Assembly: GCA_020725555.1 (NCBI GenBank)
Contig: DYEU01000034.1
Coordinates: 1 to 64,000, forward strand
Direction of reading: 5' to 3'
From: Desulfatibacillum sp.
Lineage (GTDB): Bacteria > Desulfobacterota > Desulfobacteria > Desulfobacterales > SpSt-501
DNA length: 64,000 bases
Each line of letters starts with the position of its first letter. Position 1 is the stretch's first letter. Position numbers and translations under genes: made by a program. Positions 20,917 to 48,236 of this stretch are shown one piece after another. The notes beneath the pieces were generated by a model, which was given only the letters and a program-made list of their open reading frames with translations, had not been told where the DNA came from and made no database searches.

Positions 20917-22908
20917 ATGAGGTACGCCGAGACGGGGTTTCAGCTCGAAATCGATCTCAGCCGCGGCAACATCGAGCGGGTGGAAACCGATCCGCGCCTG
21001 ACCGAGCTGCACCTGGGAGGGCTGGGGACCAACGCCCGCTTGCTCTGGGATCGCGTCCCCCCCGAGATCGACCCGCTCTCGCCGGACAACGTGCTGATCT
21101 TCAGCGCGGGCCTGCTTTGCGGCACGCAGGCGACCGGCGCCAACCGCACCATCGTCTCCGCGATCTCCCCGCAGACGCGCCTGATGGCGTTCTCCATGAT
21201 GGGCGGCTTCTTCGCCCCGGAGCTCAAATACGCGGGCTACGACAAGATCGTCCTCCGCGGGCGCACCCCCGAGCTTGCCTACCTCTTCATCCACGACGGC
21301 CGCGTCGAGATCCGCGACGCCCGCCACCTCGCGGGCAAGGGGGCGCTCGAGACGGCCGAGTGCCTCAAGCGCGAGCTCAAGGACCCCAACGTCCAGGTCG
21401 CGGCGATCGGGCTGGCCGGCGAACACCGCGTCTACTTCGCCTCGATCGAGCATGCCCGCTCGAGCGCCAGCCGCGCGGGGCTGGGGGCCGTCATGGGCAG
21501 CAAGAACCTCAAGGCGATCGCCGTGCGCGGCACGCGGGACGTGGCGGTCGCCCGGCCGGCCGAGTTCATGGAGCTCTGCCGCGAGGTCCTGCGCTACATC
21601 CAGTGGCGGCGGGACAACCCCGTCAAGGGGGTGCCGGCGATTCTCGCCGGCATCGGCTCGCCCCAGGAAATGGCCATCCATGACGAGGAGTGGCACACGA
21701 CGAACTTCGCCTGGGGAAACGCGCGCCATCGCCGCAAGGACTTCTGGACCCAGGAAAACGAGGAACGCTGGCGCCGCAGCCAGGAGCAGGCGGTCGAGCG
21801 GCTCATTTCCTGCTACAACTGCCCGATGAAGTGCGGGGCGATCGTGCGCTACCCGGCGCTCGGCGTCTCGAAGTACATGATGAAGTGCTACTCGAAGCTC
21901 ACCTACGTGATGGGCGCCATGCTCGACGATCTCGACTTCGGCTTCCGCATCGCCGGCCGCGCCCAGGAATACGGCGTCGACGCCTACACGACGCCCCAGG
22001 TGATGGCCTTCGCCATGGAGCTTTTGGAGGCGGGGATCCTGACGCCGGCCGATGTCGCCGGCATGCCCGAGGACCGCGAGGAGAAGTTCTTCTGGCTGCT
22101 CGACCGCATCGTGCGGCGCGAGGGGATCGGCGAGGTGCTGGCCGACGGGGTCTACTGGGCCGCGCGCCGCATCGGCCGGGGGGCCGAGGCCTTCGATCAC
22201 AACACGATCAAGAAGCACGAGCAGATCCCGATCAAGCTCGGCATGCTCAACCCCATCTACTTCATCATGTACGCGACCGGCGAGAAGATCAACATCACCC
22301 AGATCGAGGGGCAGATGCCCCAGATGCCGTTCGAGACCCGGCAGGAGCGGGAGGAATTCGTCCGCGACTGGATCCAGGTGCCCCACGAGCGCTTCAAGGA
22401 CTATTTCCTAAACTGGGAACCCCGCGGGGAGCGCGCCTTTCCGCACTACCCGCCGCCGGAGGCGACCTGCGAGATCGTCGAGTGGCAGGAAATGATGCAC
22501 TACCTCGACGACTCGCTCGGGCTCTGCGCGGGGCTTTCCTCGTTTCCGATCAAGCCGCCCTACCACATCCACAACCTCCCGCCGCTCGTTTCCGCGGCGA
22601 CGGGGATCGACTTCGACGAGGACTCCCTCTGGAAGGCGGCCAACCGCAACCGCACCCTGGTGCGGGCGGTCAACAACCGGCTCGGCCTGAGGCGCAAGGA
22701 CGAGAAGCCGCCCGAGGACCACTGGAAGAAACGCTTCCCCGAGCTCGAGGCGCGGCTGCTCGAGACCTACTACCGCTACAAGGGCTGGAACGCGGAAGGG
22801 GTGCCGACCCGCGATACGCTCGCGCGGCTCGACCTGGACGACGTGGCCGAGGACCTCCTGCGGCGCGGCATCCTCCGCGAAGAGGCCCCGGCCGCCGCCG
22901 AGGCCTGA
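20917..22908 (+). CDS. bamB: Class II benzoyl-CoA reductase, tungsten active-site subunit BamB
   Basis: AOR-family tungsten-bispyranopterin subunit (663 residues) that reduces benzoyl-CoA to cyclohexa-1,5-diene-1-carboxyl-CoA. It resembles Geobacter metallireducens BamB as I remember it: MRYAETGF start, GLLCGTQATGANRTIVS, MAFSMMGGFFAPELKYAGYD, and EWQEMMHYLDDSLGLCAGLS. The [4Fe-4S] cysteines are 299, 302, 306 and 537. Glu251 and His260 fall at positions I recall as active-site residues in that enzyme, and Cys324 is near the reported tungsten ligand. The start at 20917 fits the family and follows GGCGGAAGGAG. bamC follows after 26 bp. Confidence 0.93.
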   Translation: MRYAETGFQLEIDLSRGNIERVETDPRLTELHLGGLGTNARLLWDRVPPEIDPLSPDNVLIFSAGLLCGTQATGANRTIVSAISPQTRLMAFSMMGGFFAPELKYAGYDKIVLRGRTPELAYLFIHDGRVEIRDARHLAGKGALETAECLKRELKDPNVQVAAIGLAGEHRVYFASIEHARSSASRAGLGAVMGSKNLKAIAVRGTRDVAVARPAEFMELCREVLRYIQWRRDNPVKGVPAILAGIGSPQEMAIHDEEWHTTNFAWGNARHRRKDFWTQENEERWRRSQEQAVERLISCYNCPMKCGAIVRYPALGVSKYMMKCYSKLTYVMGAMLDDLDFGFRIAGRAQEYGVDAYTTPQVMAFAMELLEAGILTPADVAGMPEDREEKFFWLLDRIVRREGIGEVLADGVYWAARRIGRGAEAFDHNTIKKHEQIPIKLGMLNPIYFIMYATGEKINITQIEGQMPQMPFETRQEREEFVRDWIQVPHERFKDYFLNWEPRGERAFPHYPPPEATCEIVEWQEMMHYLDDSLGLCAGLSSFPIKPPYHIHNLPPLVSAATGIDFDEDSLWKAANRNRTLVRAVNNRLGLRRKDEKPPEDHWKKRFPELEARLLETYYRYKGWNAEGVPTRDTLARLDLDDVAEDLLRRGILREEAPAAAEA

Positions 22909-22934: not shown

Positions 22935-23498
22935 GTGAACGCCGACCGCCCGAAGAAGAAAAAGATCGTCAAGACCATCCAGATCGACCTCGACAAGTGC
23001 AACGGCTGCCGGGCCTGCGAGATGGCTTGCTCGACCTTTCACGCCCGGCCCCGCTACGCCAGCAACAACCCCGCCCGATCGCGGGTGCGCGTGCTCTTCG
23101 ACCCGCTGCGGGACCTCTACGTCCCGGTCTACGCCGGCGACTACGCGCCCGCCGAGTGCTGCGGCCGTGACCGCTACACGATCGAGGGCAAGACCTACGA
23201 CGAATGCGGCTTCTGCCGCGCCTCCTGCCCCTCGCGGGACCTCTTCAAGGAGCCCGACTCGGGCCTGCCGCTCAAGTGCGACATGTGCCAGGAGGACCCG
23301 GAGCTGAAAGAGCCGATGTGCGTGCAGTGGTGCATCACCGACGCCCTCACCTACGTCGAGCGCGAGGAGGAGGTCGAGGAAGAGAACGCCGCGCAGCCCG
23401 AGGAGCTGGAGACGGGCCTCGAGGCCCTGGCGGACAAGTTCGGGCTGGAGAAGATCGCCGAGGCCGTCGCGCGCCTGGCGGCCGCGCGGAAAGGCTAA
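22935..23498 (+). CDS. bamC: Class II benzoyl-CoA reductase Fe-S subunit BamC
   Basis: 187-residue ferredoxin-like partner of BamB with GTG start behind GAAGGGG. Cysteine groups CNGCRACEMACSTF, CCGRDR...ECGFCRASCPS, CDMCQEDPELKEPMCVQWC support about three [4Fe-4S] clusters. The N-terminus is lysine-rich (RPKKKKIVKTIQID). It carries electrons from the BamDEF module to BamB in the cytoplasm. The assignment rests on adjacency to bamB and the cluster pattern. Confidence 0.9.
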   Translation: MNADRPKKKKIVKTIQIDLDKCNGCRACEMACSTFHARPRYASNNPARSRVRVLFDPLRDLYVPVYAGDYAPAECCGRDRYTIEGKTYDECGFCRASCPSRDLFKEPDSGLPLKCDMCQEDPELKEPMCVQWCITDALTYVEREEEVEEENAAQPEELETGLEALADKFGLEKIAEAVARLAAARKG

Positions 23499-23533: not shown

Positions 23534-24685
23534 GTGGAGAACCTGGCCGATTATCAGGAGATCGTCGACCTCATCCGCGCCAACGGCGGGGAGGCCTTCA
23601 AGCGCTGCTTCCAGTGCGGCCTGTGCGACGCGGTCTGCCCTTGGAACCGCTTCCGGGCCTTCAGCATGCGGCGGATCGTGCGCGAGGCCGCCTTCGGCCT
23701 CACGGACATCGAAAGCGAGGACCTGTGGCGCTGCACGACCTGCGGCCGCTGCCCCGCGCAGTGCCCCCGGGACGTGCGCCAGATCGACTCCGGGACCGCC
23801 TTGCGCCGCATCGCCACCGAGTACGGCGTCTTCCCGCCCACGGCCCGGCCGGTGCGCGGGGTGCGCGGCAGCCTGATGGCCGAGGGCAACCCCCTGAACG
23901 AACCGCGGCGCAAGCGGGCGGACTGGGCCGAGGGCCTGGGGGTGCCCGCCTTCGCCGAGGGGATGGAGTTTCTCTATTTCCCGGGCTGCTACCTCTGCTA
24001 CGACCCGCGGCTGAAAAAGGTCGCCCGGGCCACGGCGGCGGTCCTCCAGGCCGCGGGCGTCGCGTTCGGCATCCTCGGGGAGCGCGAGAACTGCTGCGGG
24101 GAAAGCATCCGCAAGGCGGGCGACGAGGAGGCCTTCAAGCGCCTGGCCCGGGAAAACATCAAGGCCTTCATCGACCACGGGGTCCGCAAGATCCTCGTCT
24201 CCTCGCCGCACTGCTACCACACCTTCAAGAACGAGTACCCGGAATTCAAGGCCGCCTTCGAAGTGGTGCACATCGCGCAGCTGCTTCCCGGGCTGCTCGC
24301 CGCCGGGCGCCTCGCCTTCGGCGACGGCCGCGCGAGAACGGTCGCCTTCCACGACCCCTGCTACCTCGGGCGCCACAACGGGATCTTCGCCGAGCCGCGC
24401 GCCGTGCTCTCCCGGCTGCCCGGGATCAGGACGGTCGAGATGGCCGAGACGCAAGCCGACAGCCTCTGCTGCGGGGGCGGCGGCGGGCGGATCTGGATGG
24501 AGACGCCGCGGGGCGAGCGCTTCGCCGACCTGCGGCTGACACAGGCGATCGAGGCCGGGGCCGAGGTGCTGGTCACCGCCTGCCCCTATTGCATCGCCAA
24601 TTTCGAGGACAGCCGGTTGACCCTGGGACTTGCGGAGAAGATCGAAATCCGCGATCTCACGGAGCTGGTCCAGGAGGCCCTGTAG
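23534..24685 (+). CDS. bamD: HdrD/GlpC-like Fe-S protein BamD
   Basis: 383 residues with GTG start. Two N-terminal [4Fe-4S] motifs ([16 protein letters not shown] and [15 protein letters not shown]) precede two CCG domains of the heterodisulfide-reductase type: [10 protein letters not shown] with [11 protein letters not shown], and [13 protein letters not shown] with [14 protein letters not shown] domains bind noncubane [4Fe-4S] clusters in HdrB. In the known Bam complex such a subunit links the HdrA-like flavoprotein to the reductase; this role is inferred from synteny. bamE starts 58 bp downstream. Confidence 0.88.
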
Positions 24686-24743: not shown

Positions 24744-27700
24744 ATGAACCAGGAAAACGGATCCGCGCTCACCGAGACCGTCCGCTTGCTGTGCCGGACG
24801 CCGGGCGGCCCGCGCTTCGGCGACGTCCTCGTCGTCGGCGGGGGCATCAGCGGCATTCAGGCGTCGCTCGACCTGGCCTCCGCCGGCTTCAAGGTCTACC
24901 TGATCGACCGCGGCCCGGCCATCGGCGGGCGCATGGCCCAGCTGGACAAGACCTTTCCGACCAACGACTGTTCGATGTGAATTCTGTCGCCGAAACTGGT
25001 CGAGGTCGGCCGGCACCCCAACATCGAAACCCTGACGTTGACGGACGTGGACCGCGTCGCCGGCGAGGCGGGCGACTTCACGGTCACGCTCCTCCGCAAG
25101 CCGCGGTACGTTCTCGAGGAGAAGTGCACCGGCTGCACGACCTGCGTCGAATACTGCCCGGCCCTCTGCCCCGACGCCTTCAACCAGGGGCTCTCGCAGA
25201 GCAAGGCCATCCACATCCATTACGCCCAGGCCATCCCGCTCATCGCCTACATCGACGACAGCTGCCTCTACCTCAAGGAAAGGAAGTGCCGCATCTGCGA
25301 GGCGGTCTGCAAGAACCGGGCGATCGATTTCCGGCAGAAGCCCGAGACGCTTGCGGTGAACGTCGGCGCGGTCATCCTCGCCCCCGGCTTCGAGCCCTAC
25401 GACCCCCGGGAAAGCGGGCGCTACGGCTACGGCCGGCTGGCCAACGTCGTCACCAGCATGGACTTCGAGCGGCTGATGTGCGCGACCGGCCCGACCGAGG
25501 GCGAGATCCGGCGGCCTTCCGACGGCCGTCCCCCGCGCCGCATCGCCTGGGTGCAGTGTGTCGGCTCGCGCCGGGTGACCCCGGGAGAGAACCGCTACTG
25601 CTCCGCCGTCTGCTGCACCTACACCCAGAAGCAGGTGATCCTCACCAAGGACCACGACCCGGAAGCCGCCTGCACGATCTTCCACAACGACGTGCGCTCC
25701 TTCGGCAAGGACTTCGAGCGCTTCTGCGAGCGGGCCGCCCGCCTGCCCGACGTGCGCTTCATCCGCAGCTACGTCTCCATCGTGGGCGAAACCGCCGGGA
25801 GCAACGTCGTCGTCCGCTACGCCACGGCCTCCGAGGGGGTCCGGGAGGAGGAATTCGACCTCGTCGTGCTCTCCGTCGGGATGAAGCCGCCGGCCGAGGC
25901 GGCGCGGCTGGCGGAGCGCTTCGGCATCGCCCTCGACCCCTCGGGGTTCTGCCGCGTGGACCCGGCCCACCCCCTGCAGACGAGCCGGCCAGGGGTTTTC
26001 GTGAGCGGCGCCTTCGCAGGCCCCATGGACATCCCCGAGTCGGTCTTCGCCGCCAGCGGCGCCGGCGCCCGCTGCGGGGAGCTCCTCTCCCGCCGGCGCG
26101 GGCGGCTCGCCCGCGAGCGGGTCTTCCCGCCGGAGAAGGACGTGGCCGCCGAGGAGCCGCGGGTCGGGGTCTTCGTCTGCCACTGCGGGGCGAACATCGG
26201 CCGGGTCGTCGACGTTCCGGCGACGGTCGAGTACGCCCGGGGCCTGCCCCACGTGGTCTACGCCCAGGAGCAGCTCTTTTCCTGCGCGACCAACTGCGCC
26301 AAGGAGATCACCGCCATCGCCCGGGAGAAGGGCCTCAACCGGCTGGTCGTGGCCGCCTGCAGCCCCCGCACCCTGGAGCCCCTCTTCCGCGACACCCTGC
26401 GCGAGGCCGGCCTGAACCCCTATTTCTTCGAGATGGCGAACATCCGCGAGCACTGCTCCTGGGTCCATTCGCTGGAGAAGGATGCCGCCACGCGCAAGGC
26501 CCGGGACATCGTGCGCATGTCGGTGGCGCGGGCGAGCCGGCTCGAGCCGCTTAAGGAGTTCACGCTCCCGGTCCACAAGGCCGCCCTGGTGCTGGGCGGC
26601 GGCGTGGCCGGCATGACCTGCGCGCTCTCGATCGCCGCCCAGGGGCATCTCGTGCACCTGGTCGAGCGGGGCGAGGACCTGGGCGGCCTGGCCCGGCGGC
26701 TGCACACGAGCCTCGACGGCATGGACATCCCGGCCCGGGTGCGCGATCTCGCGGAGCGGGTCTACGCCAACCCGCGGATCCGCGTGTACACCCGCGCACG
26801 CGTCGTTTCGGCCGAGGGCTACATCGGCAACTTCCTCACGCGCATCGCCTCGGACCGCGGGGAGTCAGAGATCCGCCACGGCGCCACGGTGATCGCCACC
26901 GGCGCCGATCTGTACCGGCCGGCCGAGTATCGCTACGGGCAGGACGGCCGCGTCCTCACCCTGCTCGAGCTCGAGGAGGCGATCGCCCGGGGCGAGGAGC
27001 GGGTGCTCGGCGCAGGGCGCACGGTGATGATCCAGTGCGTCGGCTGCCGCAACGCCGAGCGCACCTACTGCAGCCGCATCTGCTGCAGCGCCGCGGTCAA
27101 AAACGCCCGCCGGCTCAAGGAGCTCAACCCGGCGATGGACGTCTGCATCCTCTACCGGGACATGATGACCTACGGCTTCCGCGAGGAAGCCTACCGCGAG
27201 GCCGCCGAGCGGGGCGTGCGGTTCATCCGCTTCGAGCCGGAGCGGCCGCCGCGGGTGGAGGCGGTGGCCGAAGGCGGCGCCTCGGTGCTCCGGGTCGTGG
27301 TCGACGACCCCGTCCTCGGACGTACCCTGGCGATGGACGCCGGGGTCCTGGCGCTTGCGGCGGCGGTCGTCCCCGCGGCCGACGCCCCGGAGATCGCCGG
27401 GCTCTTCAAGGTGGCCCTGGGGCCGGACGGCTTCTTCAAGGAGGCCCACGTCAAGCTGCGGCCGGTCGAATTCGCCACCGACGGGGTCTTTCTCTGCGGG
27501 CAGGCGCACTACCCCAAGCACCTCCCGGAGACGATCAAGCAGGCTTACGGCGCGGCCGGCCGCGTGGCCGCCCTTCTCGCCAACGACACCGTCGTCGCCT
27601 CGGGGGCGGTCTGCGAGGTGCTCGAGCGCCGCTGCATCGGCTGCGGCTCCTGCATCGCCGCCTGCACCTACGGGGCGATCCGGATCTCCGAGACGAAGGC

Positions 27701-27875
27701 GGGCCCCAAGGCCGCCGTCAACCCCGTGCTCTGCAAGGGCGACGGCCTCTGCAACGCCAAGTGCCCGACCGGGGCGATTGTTCTCAAGCACTTCACCGAC
27801 GAGGAACTCGCAAGCCAGATCGACGCCGCGGCCGACGCCGCCGCGTCGGAAACCCTGAACCGGAAAGCGGGATGA
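24744..27875 (+). CDS. bamE: Selenocysteine-containing HdrA-like flavoprotein BamE
   Basis: 1043 residues, reading through TGA at 24978-24980 as selenocysteine 79. The context is TNDCSM[13 protein letters not shown], the HdrA cluster-binding motif in which Cys occupies this position in most homologues; the frame stays intact and homologous on both sides. Domains: FAD fold ([20 protein letters not shown], about 29-48), [4Fe-4S] sites from Cys128 ([19 protein letters not shown]) and [10 protein letters not shown], a second HdrA-like FAD module ([19 protein letters not shown], about 615), and a C-terminal two-cluster ferredoxin from about 964. HdrA-type proteins bifurcate electrons. The stop overlaps bamF by ATGA. 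Conceptual annotation that stops at the UGA would split this gene. Confidence 0.93.
24996..25013 (+). ncRNA. SECIS-like hairpin in bamE
   Basis: Beginning 15 nt after the UGA, CTGGTC (24996-25001) pairs with GGCCGG (25008-25013) using two G-U pairs, leaving the loop GAGGTC. Bacterial SECIS elements lie within the coding region just after the UGA, and the E. coli fdhF loop also contains GGUC. This supports selenocysteine insertion by SelB. Confidence 0.65.
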
Positions 27876-28726
27876 GCGACATGAGCGAGGAGCGGACCTT
27901 CAAGCCGAAGCTGCTGGGATTCGTCTGCCACTGGTGAGCCTACGGCGCGGCTGACCTGGCTGGAGTTTCCAGACTGCAATATGCGACGGAGTTGCGGCTG
28001 ATCCGGGTGATGTGCTCCGGGAGGGTGGACCTCGCCCACGTGATCCGGGCCTTCGAGAACGGGATGGACGGAGTCTACCTCGGCGGCTGCCGGTTGAACG
28101 AGTGCAACTACATCACGCACGGCAACTACGACGCCCTCGCCATGGTGCTCCTGGCGCGGCGGATCCTTCAGCACATCGGGCTCCACCCCGAGCGGTTGCG
28201 GATCGAGTTCATGTCCTCCGCGGACGGGATGCTCTTCGCCGAGGGGGTGAACGATTTCGTGCGCACGGTGAAAGCGCTCGGGCCCCTGGGCCGGGCCGAA
28301 GGCCTCGCGCCGGGGGAGGTCGCGGCGCGGCTGGCGGAGGTCCGGAAGCTCGTCCCCTGGATCAAGCTCGCCAAGCGGGATAAGCTCGCCGCGCGGCTCA
28401 CCGACCCGGCCGGCCGCGAGGGCCACTTCACCGCCGAGGAGGTGGCGGCCCTTTTCCGCGAAGTGCCGGCCTATTACATCGACCCCCAAAAATGCCAGGC
28501 CTGCAGGATCTGCGCGGGCCGCTGCCCGGTCGAGGCCATCGACGGCGGCAAGCAGCGCGTCCACGTCATCGACCAGGAGCGGTGCATCAAGTGCGGCACC
28601 TGCCTCGCCGTCTGCCCGGAGCGCTTCCAGGCGGTCACGTGCTTTGTCGGGGTGCCGCCCCCCCCGCCCCCGGCCGAGGACCGGCGCACCCCCGTCCGGC
28701 GGAAGAAGGCCGCGGCCGCGCCTTAA
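27872..28726 (+). CDS. bamF: Selenocysteine-containing MvhD/FrhD-like protein BamF
   Basis: 284 residues, reading through TGA at 27935-27937 as selenocysteine 22. The context FVCHW-Sec-AYGAADLAGVSRLQY is the diagnostic MvhD (methyl-viologen hydrogenase delta) motif, where Cys or Sec occurs. Further cysteines for a [2Fe-2S]-type site are in VMCSGRVD and GGCRLNECNY. A C-terminal two-cluster ferredoxin (CQACRICAGRCPVEAI, CIKCGTCLAVCPE) is fused, which MvhD lacks. It should deliver electrons to BamE. The ATG overlaps the bamE stop by 4 nt. No BamGHI genes follow; fdhD does. Confidence 0.93.
27960..27972 (+). ncRNA. SECIS-like hairpin in bamF
   Basis: CTGGA (27960-27964) pairs perfectly with TCCAG (27968-27972) around a GTT loop, 22 nt after the UGA; one further G-C pair is possible beyond a mismatch. 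It is small but correctly placed for a bacterial SECIS element. Confidence 0.5.
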
Positions 28727-28733
28727 GACGGCG

Positions 28734-29576
28734 ATGACGGAACACCCCCCGCAGGCGGAGGACCCCGTCCCCCCCCTTTCCCGGAGCGTGCTCAGGCCCG
28801 TGCGGCGCCTGGGGGCCCCCGGGCCGGAAGCGGATTCCCGCGAGCTGATCGGCGAGGAGCCGCTTCTCTTGCGGATCGAAGGCTCCCCCTATGCCGCCGT
28901 GATGCGCACCCCGGGGGAGGAGATCGCCCACGCGGCGGGCTTCTGCCTCGCCGAGGGCATCGTCGAGGCGGCCGAGGATTTCGCCGGGATCGGCTTCTGC
29001 GCCGATCTCGACCCCAACGTGGTCGAGGTCCGGCTGCGGCCCGAGCGGGCCGCGCGCGTGGCCGCCATCTTGGAGCGGCGGGGGTTTCTCAGCCAGACCA
29101 GCTGCGGGATCTGCGGCAAGCAGATGCTCGCGGAGCTGCTGCAAGTGCTCGAGCCCCTGGGAAAGGGCCCTCTCCCTCCGCCCGGCGCGCTGCGGGAGGC
29201 GGTCCGCGCGCTTCTGCGCAGCCAGCATTTCTACCACCGCACCCGCGGCTCCCACGCAGCCCTCGTCGGCGACCGCGACGGCCGGGGGCTTGCCTTCGCC
29301 GAGGACGTCGGCCGGCACAACGCCGTCGACAAGGCGGTGGGCCGCCTGCTTCTCGAGCGGCGCCTTTCCCGCGCGGCCGTTCTTGCGCTCTCCTCGCGGG
29401 TGAGCTACGAGCTCATCCAGAAGGCCGCCCGGGCGCGCATCCCCGCCGTGGTGGCCCTCTCGCGGCCGACGGCGCTCGCCGTCGCGATCGCCCGCGCGCT
29501 CGATCTCGCCCTCGTCGGCGTGGAAGGCGAGGGGGGGCTCGTCGTCTACAGCGGGGAAGAGCGCCTCTGCGGCTGA
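28734..29576 (+). CDS. fdhD: FdhD-type sulfurtransferase (molybdopterin enzyme maturation)
   Basis: 280 residues. FdhD transfers sulfur from a cysteine desulfurase to the Mo/W-bis-MGD cofactor of formate dehydrogenases. Family markers are GEEPLLLRIEGSPYAAVMRT, TPGEEIAHAAGFCLAEGI, the reactive TSCGICGK motif (CxxC), the segment EDVGRHNAVDKAVG, and LSSRVSYELIQKAARARIPA. It starts 7 bp after the bamF stop and is likely cotranscribed. No formate dehydrogenase catalytic gene is in the window, so it may serve one encoded elsewhere or, speculatively, the tungsten site of BamB. Confidence 0.92.
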   Translation: MTEHPPQAEDPVPPLSRSVLRPVRRLGAPGPEADSRELIGEEPLLLRIEGSPYAAVMRTPGEEIAHAAGFCLAEGIVEAAEDFAGIGFCADLDPNVVEVRLRPERAARVAAILERRGFLSQTSCGICGKQMLAELLQVLEPLGKGPLPPPGALREAVRALLRSQHFYHRTRGSHAALVGDRDGRGLAFAEDVGRHNAVDKAVGRLLLERRLSRAAVLALSSRVSYELIQKAARARIPAVVALSRPTALAVAIARALDLALVGVEGEGGLVVYSGEERLCG

Positions 29577-38711: not shown

Positions 38712-40616
38712 ATGGCGCTCAACCGCAACATCGCCTACATCGACCTTACGACGGGGGAGGTGCGCACCGAGCCGATCCCCCTCGAGTGGCGGCGCAAGTA
38801 CATCGGCGGGCGCGGCCTCGACGCCTACCTTCTCTACACCCACTGCCCGCCCCAGGCCGACCCGCTCGGCCCGGAGAACGTGCTGCTGATTAGCGCGGGG
38901 CTCCTCGTGGGGACGATGGCCTCGGCGTCGGCGCGCACGCACATCATGGCCAAATCGCCGCTCACCGGCATTCTCGGCTCGGCGAACATGGGCGGCTTCT
39001 TCGCCCCCGAGCTGCGCTGGGCGGGTTTCGACCACCTCGTGATCCGCGGGCAGGCCGAAAGGCCCGTCTACCTCTACATCCACAACGGGGAGATCGAGAT
39101 CCGCAGCGCCGAGAAGCTCTGGGGCTCCGGGGTCTACGACACCCAGGACCTCATCCGCCGCGAGCTCGACGACCCGGAGGCCCAGGTCCTTTGCATCGGG
39201 CAGGCGGGCGAGAACCTCGTCCGCTTCGCCAACGTGATGACCGGCCGCAAGAACGCCGGCGGCCGCACGGGCATGGGCGCCGTCATGGGCGCCAAGCGCC
39301 TGAAGGCCGTCGCCTGCCGCGGCACCCGGAGCATCGCCATCCGCTTTCCCGAGGAGGCGCTCGAGTACAACAAGCAGATCATCGACCAGGTCGTCTCGAC
39401 CAAGGTCTCGCAGATCATGCAGCGCTGGGGGACGGGCTTCATCTTCGGCGTCACCAACACGACCGGCCTCGTCCGCTGCCGCAACTTCCAGTACAACCAG
39501 CTCCCCAACAGCGAGGACATCGAGTGTGAAAACCTGGACAAGGTCTCGATCGGCCTCGACGGCTGCTTCGGCTGCCAGGTCCACTGCCGCCACCGCTACA
39601 TCATCCCCGAGGGCCCCTACGCCGGCACCTACGCCCAGGGCCCGGAGTACACGAGTCAGGGCGCCTTCGGCGCCGAGGTGGGCTGCCGCAGCCTGAACAC
39701 GGTGCTCGTGGGCAACCACCTCGTGAACGACTACGGCATGGACACCCTCGAGGTGGGCAGCATGATGGCCTGGGCGATGGAGCTCTTCGAAAAGGGGATC
39801 CTCACCGAGAAGGACACCGCCGGGCTCCGGCTCGCCTGGGGCGACGATGAGGCGGTGATCGAGCTCGTCCGGCGGATCGCCTTCCGCCGCGACATCGGCG
39901 ACATCCTCGCCGAGGGCCCCCTGGGGGCGGCGCGGCGGATCGGGCCGCAGAGCCTGCCCTACCTGATCCACGTCAAGGGCATGAGCAACCTCCACTCCGA
40001 CGAGCGCCCGACGCCGGCCCTCGCCCTCAACATCGCCGTCTCGAGCCGCGGGGCCGATCACCTGCGGGGCCGCCCGGCGATCGACCTCTACAACCTGCCG
40101 CTCCCCGTGCTCGAGCGCGTCTACCGCAACCCCGACGGCTACACCGGCCCGCTCACCAACAGCTACTCCGAGTACGAGGGCAAGCCGCGCATGGTGCAGT
40201 GGCAGGAACTCGTCTACATGGCCGTCGATTCCCTGGGGGTCTGCAAATACCACACGGTCTTTCTCAGCCCCAACCACCCCCAGTTCAAGGAGTTCGCGCG
40301 CCTGATCTACCTGAACACCGGCCTGGAATTCAGCGAACGGGAGATCTGGGACGCCGCCGAGCGCTGCTACACGATCGAGCGGCTCTTCAACCTGCGCGAG
40401 GGCATGACGCGCAGGGACGACTGGCTGCCCGACCGCTACTTCGACGAGCCCACCCGCCTGGGGCTCCCGGTCGCCCGCGGCAAGTGCATCGACCGCGAGA
40501 AATTCCGCGCCATGCTCGACGAGTACTACCGCCTGCACGGATGGGACGAAAACGGGGTGCCGACGCCCGAGACCCTCGAGCGCCTCGGCATCGCCGCGCT
40601 CAAGCCGGCCGCCTGA
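38712..40616 (+). CDS. Aldehyde ferredoxin oxidoreductase family tungsten enzyme
   Basis: 634 residues. AOR family landmarks: NRNIAYIDLTTGEVRTEPIP, YIGGRGLDAYLLY, ANMGGFFAPELRWAGFDHLV, GRTGMGAVMGAKRLKAVACRG. The [4Fe-4S] ligands are Cys285, 288, 292 (CFGCQVHC) and Cys511 (GVCKYHT). It should hold a tungsten-bispyranopterin cofactor. It differs clearly from BamB in the same window, and the natural substrate (aldehyde, or acid reduced to aldehyde) is not evident. It forms an operon with a ferredoxin and a MoaD-like protein. Confidence 0.92.
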   Translation: MALNRNIAYIDLTTGEVRTEPIPLEWRRKYIGGRGLDAYLLYTHCPPQADPLGPENVLLISAGLLVGTMASASARTHIMAKSPLTGILGSANMGGFFAPELRWAGFDHLVIRGQAERPVYLYIHNGEIEIRSAEKLWGSGVYDTQDLIRRELDDPEAQVLCIGQAGENLVRFANVMTGRKNAGGRTGMGAVMGAKRLKAVACRGTRSIAIRFPEEALEYNKQIIDQVVSTKVSQIMQRWGTGFIFGVTNTTGLVRCRNFQYNQLPNSEDIECENLDKVSIGLDGCFGCQVHCRHRYIIPEGPYAGTYAQGPEYTSQGAFGAEVGCRSLNTVLVGNHLVNDYGMDTLEVGSMMAWAMELFEKGILTEKDTAGLRLAWGDDEAVIELVRRIAFRRDIGDILAEGPLGAARRIGPQSLPYLIHVKGMSNLHSDERPTPALALNIAVSSRGADHLRGRPAIDLYNLPLPVLERVYRNPDGYTGPLTNSYSEYEGKPRMVQWQELVYMAVDSLGVCKYHTVFLSPNHPQFKEFARLIYLNTGLEFSEREIWDAAERCYTIERLFNLREGMTRRDDWLPDRYFDEPTRLGLPVARGKCIDREKFRAMLDEYYRLHGWDENGVPTPETLERLGIAALKPAA

Positions 40617-46988: not shown

Positions 46989-48236
46989 CTATCGGCGGCG
47001 CTCTTCGAGCTGCTCGATGAAGGCCTCGACGTTCGTCTTGGTCTGCTCATCGGAGATCAGCCGCAGGTCGTTTAAGTCCCCGTTGAGGATCAGGCTGGGA
47101 ATGCCGGTTTCCTTCTCCAGCCGCTGGGGCATGCCGTAGCGGCAGTTCGAGTTGTTCGGGCAGGTCTTGGCGTCGTGGTAGATGATCCCGTCCACCTGGA
47201 AGAAGGAGAGCATGCGGCGGATGTAGTCCTCCTTGGCCTCGTCGGAGCGGACGATGAAGAGCTCGGTGTAGGCCCGCGCCATGCTGGGGATGGGGTCGTT
47301 GGGGTCGAGGGCGGAGAAGATCCAGCTGTTGCAGTAGGTCGAGGCGAGGACGTTCGCGCGCAGCGAGGCGAAGAGCTGGGCGTGGGCGCTCAGGCGGCCC
47401 CAGACCGGCATGCCGTCCCAGTAGATGCGGTAGCGCTCCTCCTCGAGCGCCCCCTCGCCGCGGCGGATGCGCTCCTCGAGCTCGGCGAGCAGCTTGCGGT
47501 AGACCTCGACCGCCTTCGGGGTGCCGCGCCCGACGACCGCCGGGCCCATCAGGGTCGTGCCGTCGAAGAAGGTGATCGGCGAGGGCCGCGCCGCGGCCGT
47601 GTCGAGGATCTGTTTCCAGAGCTCGGAGCACTGCCGGGAGAGGTCGACCGCGCGGCGCAGATCCTCCATCTCGAAGCGCCGGCCGGCGATCTTTTCGAGC
47701 GGCGGGATCAGGGCCTCGAGCTGCTTGGCGATCGAGACGATGTGGCGGTCGGTCACCTCGTCCACCCCGCGGTAGGTGTGGACGCCGAGGACGGGGGCGT
47801 TGAACTTCTGGCCGTACCAGACGAACCAGTCCTGCACGTCGCGGCATTGGTTGGTGTTGTAGACGAGCACGTCCGGACGGGGGATGCTCTGGATGCCGAA
47901 GGCCTTCTGCAGCGGGGTGACCCCGCGCAGGAAGGCGCCGATGTCCGCGGTCAGGTAGGAGCAGATGTCCGGCGAGTAGCCGATCGCGTTCGCCTCGGGG
48001 ATGAGGTCGGTGGCCATGCGGGTTGCGCCCAGCATGGCCGAGTGGGTCTCCGGGAAGTAGACCAGGAAGCCCATGGCGCGCAGGATTTCGGCCGGGCCGA
48101 CGCTCGTGCACCAGGCGATCTTGGGCGAGCCCGCGGCTGCGGCGGCGTCGAGCTCGAGGTAGTAGTCGCGCATGAACTGGTTGATGTCCGCGGCGGCGGC
48201 GAGTTTCTTGCGGGGGGCTTTTTTCTCTTCACTCAT
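46989..48236 (-). CDS. 2-hydroxyacyl-CoA dehydratase / class I benzoyl-CoA reductase-type subunit
   Basis: 415-residue member of the HgdB/BcrB family. Three cysteines for a [4Fe-4S] cluster are visible: Cys43 (IAWCTSVGPAEILRAMGF), Cys92 (GYSPDICSYLTADIGAFLRG) and Cys359 (KTCPNNSNCRYG). Family enzymes are heterodimers of two related subunits that receive low-potential electrons from an ATPase activator. The activator gene is 28 bp upstream, but the second dimer subunit is absent from the window. It may work as a homodimer, pair with a distant partner, or serve a new reaction. Confidence 0.85.
   Translation of the reverse strand: MSEEKKAPRKKLAAAADINQFMRDYYLELDAAAAAGSPKIAWCTSVGPAEILRAMGFLVYFPETHSAMLGATRMATDLIPEANAIGYSPDICSYLTADIGAFLRGVTPLQKAFGIQSIPRPDVLVYNTNQCRDVQDWFVWYGQKFNAPVLGVHTYRGVDEVTDRHIVSIAKQLEALIPPLEKIAGRRFEMEDLRRAVDLSRQCSELWKQILDTAAARPSPITFFDGTTLMGPAVVGRGTPKAVEVYRKLLAELEERIRRGEGALEEERYRIYWDGMPVWGRLSAHAQLFASLRANVLASTYCNSWIFSALDPNDPIPSMARAYTELFIVRSDEAKEDYIRRMLSFFQVDGIIYHDAKTCPNNSNCRYGMPQRLEKETGIPSLILNGDLNDLRLISDEQTKTNVEAFIEQLEERRR

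Follow-up and report, generated by a model that had tools for sequence, protein, structure and literature searches.

Benzoyl-CoA reductase, the enzyme that breaks aromatic rings without oxygen, ranks with the most demanding machines for electron transfer that biology has. That HdrA and FrhD are selenoproteins of bacteria has long been known, with HdrA forms in methanogens, Syntrophobacter, Desulfotalea and others (available part of PMC1794560), and HdrA is listed with the motif CxxU (excerpt of PMC13188914). HdrA selenoproteins form an established family, as the first-pass annotation of the present DNA had noted. In the literature available in part, one explicit report of selenocysteine in BamE was found: Desulfococcus multivorans DSM 2059 has a bamE with UGA and a SECIS element (dmul_C24500/10; PMC5109826). 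As far as its description goes, this is the same subunit with the same recoding claim in a different organism, apparently split by annotation; its two locus tags agree with the earlier expectation that automated annotation breaks such a gene.

The role of the corresponding position is described for methanogen HdrA. In the available part of PMC9012536, the N-terminal Fe-S cluster of one HdrA copy has Cys197 of its partner copy as a ligand; where HdrAs are fused or in tandem, the cluster domain and Cys197 are distributed over the two halves. PMC9012536 names the organism as M. wolfeii, and PMC12350162 names M. thermolithotrophicus for 5ODH; the HdrA sequences of 5ODH and 5odc are identical, and the residue numbering of PMC9012536 and 5odc is here taken as equal.

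Here we analysed a window of 64,000 nucleotides from a Desulfatibacillum genome of 3.59 Mb (35 contigs, completeness 100). The genes bamB, bamC, bamD, bamE and bamF of a class II benzoyl-CoA reductase operon are present in this order, with an fdhD-like gene after them, between positions 20917 and 29576 (Table 1). BamB matches benzoyl-CoA reductase structure 4z3w, which we take to be the Geobacter enzyme, with 1027 bits, so that the operon context proposed in the first-pass annotation was recovered. Benzoyl-CoA reduction by this operon is predicted from BamB only, and electron bifurcation by the module is likewise a prediction. The window also contains a second aldehyde ferredoxin oxidoreductase gene (38712-40616) and, on the reverse strand (46989-48236), a gene for a 2-hydroxyglutaryl-CoA dehydratase D-component family protein (PF06050).

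We propose with high confidence, from comparative sequence analysis, that the in-frame UGA of bamE is a hairpin-guided selenocysteine codon, and that Sec79 of this HdrA-like electron-transfer subunit would be a cluster ligand.

Table 1. Features of the bam locus and of related genes (window coordinates unless a contig is named)
Feature	Position	Strand	Remark
bamB	20917-22908	+	Aldehyde ferredoxin oxidoreductase-type active-site subunit
bamC	22935-23498	+	Fe-S subunit; GTG start
bamD	23534-24685	+	HdrD/GlpC-like subunit; GTG start
bamE	24744-27875	+	Two fused HdrA-like halves; 1043 codons through one UGA
Cys76	24969-24971	+	Partner residue in C-x-x-U; homologue alignment
UGA codon 79, probable selenocysteine	24978-24980	+	Aligned with residue 197 of HdrA 5odc_A
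Bacterial SECIS hairpin	24996-25013	+	6 bp stem, loop GAGGUC
HdrA N-terminal [4Fe-4S] domain within BamE	26133-26612	+	Residues 464-623; alignment
bamF	27872-28726	+	MvhD/FlpD domain and C-terminal 2[4Fe-4S] domain resembling the end of BamH
Second in-frame UGA, bamF codon 22	27935-27937	+	VCHW-U, in FlpD/MvhD domain
SECIS-like hairpin of bamF	27960-27972	+	CTGGA-GTT-TCCAG; near-frozen codons in Sec-type BamF
fdhD-like gene	28734-29576	+	Directly after bamF
HdrA-type UGA paralogues	C12:80529-83573 (L017); C6 (L022, L023)		Same genome

Residue 79 and the iron-sulfur cluster of BamE

The bamE frame runs from an ATG at 24744 to a stop at 27873-27875; as noted in the first pass, its 1043 codons include the TGA at codon 79 and no further stop. 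The solved HdrA 8rvu could be aligned to BamE residues 28-396, 464-623 and 892-1035. Three NCBIfam HdrA models match BamE with scores under their curated cut-offs, which is what a rearranged fusion may give.

Both the HdrA sequence and the C-x-x-U motif are present (C76-S-M-U79), residue 79 lying in the context TNDCSM-U-ILSPKL. An ungapped alignment of residues 28-130 with 146-248 of 5odc_A places residue 79 on HdrA residue 197; the earlier statement that HdrA proteins have a cysteine here holds for the solved HdrA and agrees with the published ligand Cys197. Among the best 80 of at least 576 homologous loci, taken together with the window, Cys76 is a cysteine in 35/36 selenocysteine forms (one gap) and 44/44 cysteine forms.

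The first half of BamE carries Sec79 and is devoid of the N-terminal cluster domain, while the second half has neither a C-x-x-C/U pair nor a cysteine at the equivalent place. In the intervening N-terminal-type domain, Cys479, Cys481, Cys514 and Cys539 are kept in all 36 selenocysteine forms (window included) and in 44, 44, 44 and 43 of the 44 cysteine forms, again among the best 80 of at least 576 loci. This layout suggests that Sec79 pairs with the cluster of the 464-623 domain within one chain. By this alignment, residue 79 as a cluster-binding position is well founded as an inference. The first-pass annotation was thus right about the position, which aligns with a ligand, but the cluster likely spans the HdrA halves instead of sitting at the local CxxC.

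C-x-x-U is a usual redox motif, and selenocysteine might be inserted here to form a redox-active selenenylsulfide pair, C76-U79, with no cluster ligation. The listing of HdrA with CxxU in the excerpted review (PMC13188914) would fit such a pair. We nevertheless judge it unlikely, given that residue 79 aligns with residue 197, the ligand of the other copy's N-terminal cluster, and that the two halves fused in BamE complement each other in the way expected for cluster ligation.

Cluster ligation by Sec79 would work as follows. By alignment, each BamE chain holds two HdrA copies, with Sec79 in the first half and the cluster domain mid-chain, joined to the second. By analogy with Cys197 between methanogen HdrA copies, Sec79 would most likely complete the [4Fe-4S] cluster as its selenolate ligand. 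This cluster would sit on the route of electrons between the flavins and feed BamBC with electrons of very low potential. Selenium would then be placed at a named spot, where two fused flavin halves probably have a [4Fe-4S] cluster with a selenolate ligand between them.

Proposed decoding of the bamE UGA

The hairpin downstream of the UGA has been described before as to position, stem and loop, and correctly so: 18 nt, CTGGTC and GGCCGG around the loop GAGGTC, beginning 15 nt past the TGA. Taken alone, it is no evidence and no better than chance. Comparable stems (six pairs, G-U allowed, loop of 3-9 nt) start 8-30 nt downstream of 312 of the 1019 codons of bamE, a GC-rich gene, and when the peptide LVEVGR is randomly recoded with synonymous codons at bamE codon usage, all six pairs form in 7.9% of draws. 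The hairpin comes out as the best fold only when the local 27-nt stretch is considered, and RNAfold over the 60 nt downstream favours another fold. A single sequence therefore proves little, and it is the comparison that carries the signal.

Third-position variability in codons 85-90 is the lowest of 998 six-codon windows across the 36 selenocysteine forms, at 0.099 bits versus a gene mean of 1.36; in the 44 cysteine forms the same codons rank 54th, at 1.03 bits (window plus the best 80 of at least 576 loci). Mean local folding energy is -11.6 kcal/mol in the selenocysteine forms and -2.75 kcal/mol in the cysteine forms. In the first set of sequences, the six-pair hairpin was found in 63/63 with TGA versus 3/47 with a Cys codon. 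Of these 63, 3 have A-U in place of C-G as the outer pair, with both sides altered, and 8 have U-A in place of U-G at one inner pair.

The same picture came from 60 HdrA paralogues of related genomes (37/39 TGA, 0/21 Cys), and both sets combined have all six pairs in 100/102 TGA versus 3/68 Cys sequences. The exceptions are L159 and L176, with TGA and without the full stem, and L066, L099 and L100, with Cys and the full stem. Where the peptide is identically LVEVGR, the hairpin is present in 87/88 TGA versus 0/10 Cys sequences (Fisher p = 8e-13, overstated since the rows are related). By these comparisons the hairpin tracks the UGA, not the protein sequence, and its conservation with TGA decides for the SECIS reading.

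The homologue scan of genome contigs yielded at least 576 confirmed stretches, of which the best 80 were used, so that proportions are no census; one search peptide had Cys at the residue-79 position. Codon 79 is covered by 79 of these best 80 loci, with 35 TGA, 38 TGC and 6 TGT: only Cys codons replace TGA, and TGA records are named for several phyla. In related genomes, among them 6/6 other genomes of the genus, all 21 BamE loci covering the site have TGA; two further loci stop short of it. The search of plasmids for a near-identical bamE gave no match. Three more HdrA-type paralogues in the window genome have UGA at the equivalent place with the same hairpin.

All four genes to which the first-pass annotation had tied its reading, selA, selB, selC and selD, were found in the genome. 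selB is present, selA scores 617 bits, and selD scores 371 bits (cut-off 125) and has one in-frame TGA of its own. For tRNA-Sec, the Rfam model gives 77.6 bits, and at the same place ARAGORN reports a tRNA-SeC with anticodon TCA. The Rfam model also matches ordinary tRNAs in 14/14 control genomes, in 5 of them above cut-off, so the identification leans on ARAGORN as well. Altogether, the bamE UGA is very probably read as selenocysteine: SelB would bring Sec-tRNA to the UGA, with the hairpin guiding it.

A true stop, or a decay mutation that makes bamE a pseudogene or moves its start downstream, is very improbable. Translation table 11 reads UGA as a stop, and an open reading frame from TTG 25038 to 27875 does exist. 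However, the 78 codons upstream can be aligned to HdrA at its flavin-binding start, and TGA is kept in 35/79 loci with only Cys codons otherwise (among the best 80 of at least 576); none of these 79 homologues ends at the site, and the hairpin is frozen. We rejected this explanation on the upstream alignment, the TGA retention and the hairpin.

Other bacteria are known to reassign UGA, and with Cys in 44/79 homologues (among the best 80 of at least 576) the codon might be decoded as Cys or Trp by a selenium-free route. Its probability is equally slight: both bamB and bamE itself terminate at a UGA, the selenocysteine machinery is complete, and the hairpin goes with TGA, not with Cys codons. 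We rejected it on these three grounds. Finally, that the TGA is a sequencing or assembly error for TGC or TGT, to which an assembly in 35 contigs might lend some colour, is untenable and of negligible probability, as TGA recurs across other assemblies, namely those of the genus and the related covering loci above.

BamF and the genes that follow it

The next gene, bamF, would carry a probable second selenocysteine at the UGA of its codon 22. Among the best 80 of at least 576 loci, BamF has TGA in 36/36 loci beside a selenocysteine BamE (window included), and beside a cysteine BamE the 44 loci have TGA in 23 and Cys in 19, with 2 not found or read. In 59 Sec-type BamF sequences, the codons at positions 8-12 past the UGA are predominantly GCT (48), GGA (53), GTT (51), TCC (55) and AGA (50); these nearly frozen codons would form the hairpin listed in Table 1. 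By folding energy this hairpin does not separate the two types (means of -8.1 kcal/mol for Sec-type versus -9.1 kcal/mol for Cys-type, p = 0.97), and what argues for it is thus the freezing of its codons.

Relative to the selenocysteine site, Cys-type BamF has an extra Cys at +1 in 18/19 and at +8 in 13/19 sequences. Sec-type BamF has Cys at +8 in 0/59, and the four commonest codons at +1 (43/59) stand for Ala or Gly. Among the FlpD matches in the window genome, 4 of 7 hold a TGA, bamF included.

The genes bamG, bamH and bamI were not found after bamF, and BamH is matched in the window only by the BamF tail: the C-terminal 2[4Fe-4S] domain of BamF is 55% identical to residues 548-639 of Geobacter argillaceus BamH. 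Such a fused BamF occurs in 18/36 loci with selenocysteine BamE and 4/44 with cysteine BamE, and bamG or bamH follows bamF in 14/36 and 30/44, respectively; the remainder are loci with short flanks (4 and 8) and 2 cysteine loci arranged otherwise (window plus the best 80 of at least 576). Upstream of selenocysteine BamE, where the flank suffices, BamB, BamC and BamD are present in 17/18, 21/22 and 26/27 loci (window included).

Elsewhere in the genome, a gene pair on contig C15 shows 39% identity to BamG and 53% identity to BamH of G. argillaceus, its BamH-like protein having a Nuo51-type domain; no BamI match was found within 11 kb around this pair. As NaphS2 has bamG-I in a separate cluster (available part of PMC2988823), separate genes are possible in the window genome too.

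Selenocysteine and cysteine forms compared with known systems

Trees of 81, 108 and 167 rows (quick searches, LG+G4) all place cysteine BamE nearly or wholly in one clade, nested in a grade of selenocysteine BamE. The clade has 44 rows in the 81-row tree (support 100) and 43 rows in the larger ones (supports 100 and 99), in which L054 sits apart near the base yet has the residues of the cysteine clade. In the 167-row tree BamE is monophyletic (101/101) and the minimum number of Sec/Cys changes is 8; a simple two-state model, restricted to the rows descending from the BamE base, puts selenocysteine there with 0.999. Support falls below 90 at several inner branches, both states are present in the outgroup (42 Sec, 24 Cys) and the 108-row tree carried a warning of long branches meeting, so the Sec-to-Cys direction is likely, but unproven. 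Selenocysteine is thus likely ancestral in BamE, as judged from these trees.

An additional Cys88 is found in 40/44 cysteine BamE (among the best 80 of at least 576 loci) and in the cysteine paralogues L142 and L147. In the larger paralogue set it occurs in 0/21 cysteine and 1/39 selenocysteine forms, so a rule for all HdrA by which Cys88 accompanies Cys79 was rejected; from these counts, Cys88 appears mainly a feature of the BamE clade.

We regard the following history, drawn from these comparisons, as evenly balanced between true and false. Cysteine BamE of the Geobacter type would have arisen about once from a selenocysteine form with gain of the extra Cys88, and the selenocysteine of BamF would have been lost later and only in part. 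Alongside it would exist a form without bamGHI, like that of the window, in which BamF has its own ferredoxin tail and the enzyme is supplied by ferredoxin or a different carrier, not by NADH.

Among the best 80 of at least 576 loci, 5 genomes have both selenocysteine and cysteine BamE operons: L041/L078 (on one contig), L037/L048, L054/L071, L058/L076 and L033/L063, the first four pairs matched by isolate name and the last, in Desulforhabdus sp. TSK, by record title. The two versions, in some cases within one genome, are a natural test of what selenium contributes.

Selenocysteine in the HdrA family, and once in BamE, is already published in the sources available in part; its ancestral state in BamE and the operon without bamGHI may be new. 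Neither a single Sec-to-Cys switch in BamE nor a bamGHI-less form with fused BamF was found in the accessible literature, and subscription papers may hold either. In genomes with such selenocysteine forms, gene callers treating UGA as a stop will break up bamE and bamF and conceal the pathway.

With the HdrA selenoprotein family, as far as its sources are available, BamE of the window shares HdrA homology, C-x-x-U and the often adjoining gene for a selenocysteine-containing FrhD/MvhD; it differs in that two HdrA halves are fused and that the neighbours are the ring-reductase genes bamBCD. With the Geobacter-type operon, that of the window shares bamB, bamC, bamD, bamE and bamF in order. Unlike that type, it lacks bamGHI behind bamF and has a BamF ending in a BamH-like ferredoxin tail, and whereas BamE of Geobacter argillaceus (L090) has Cys79, that of the window has Sec79.
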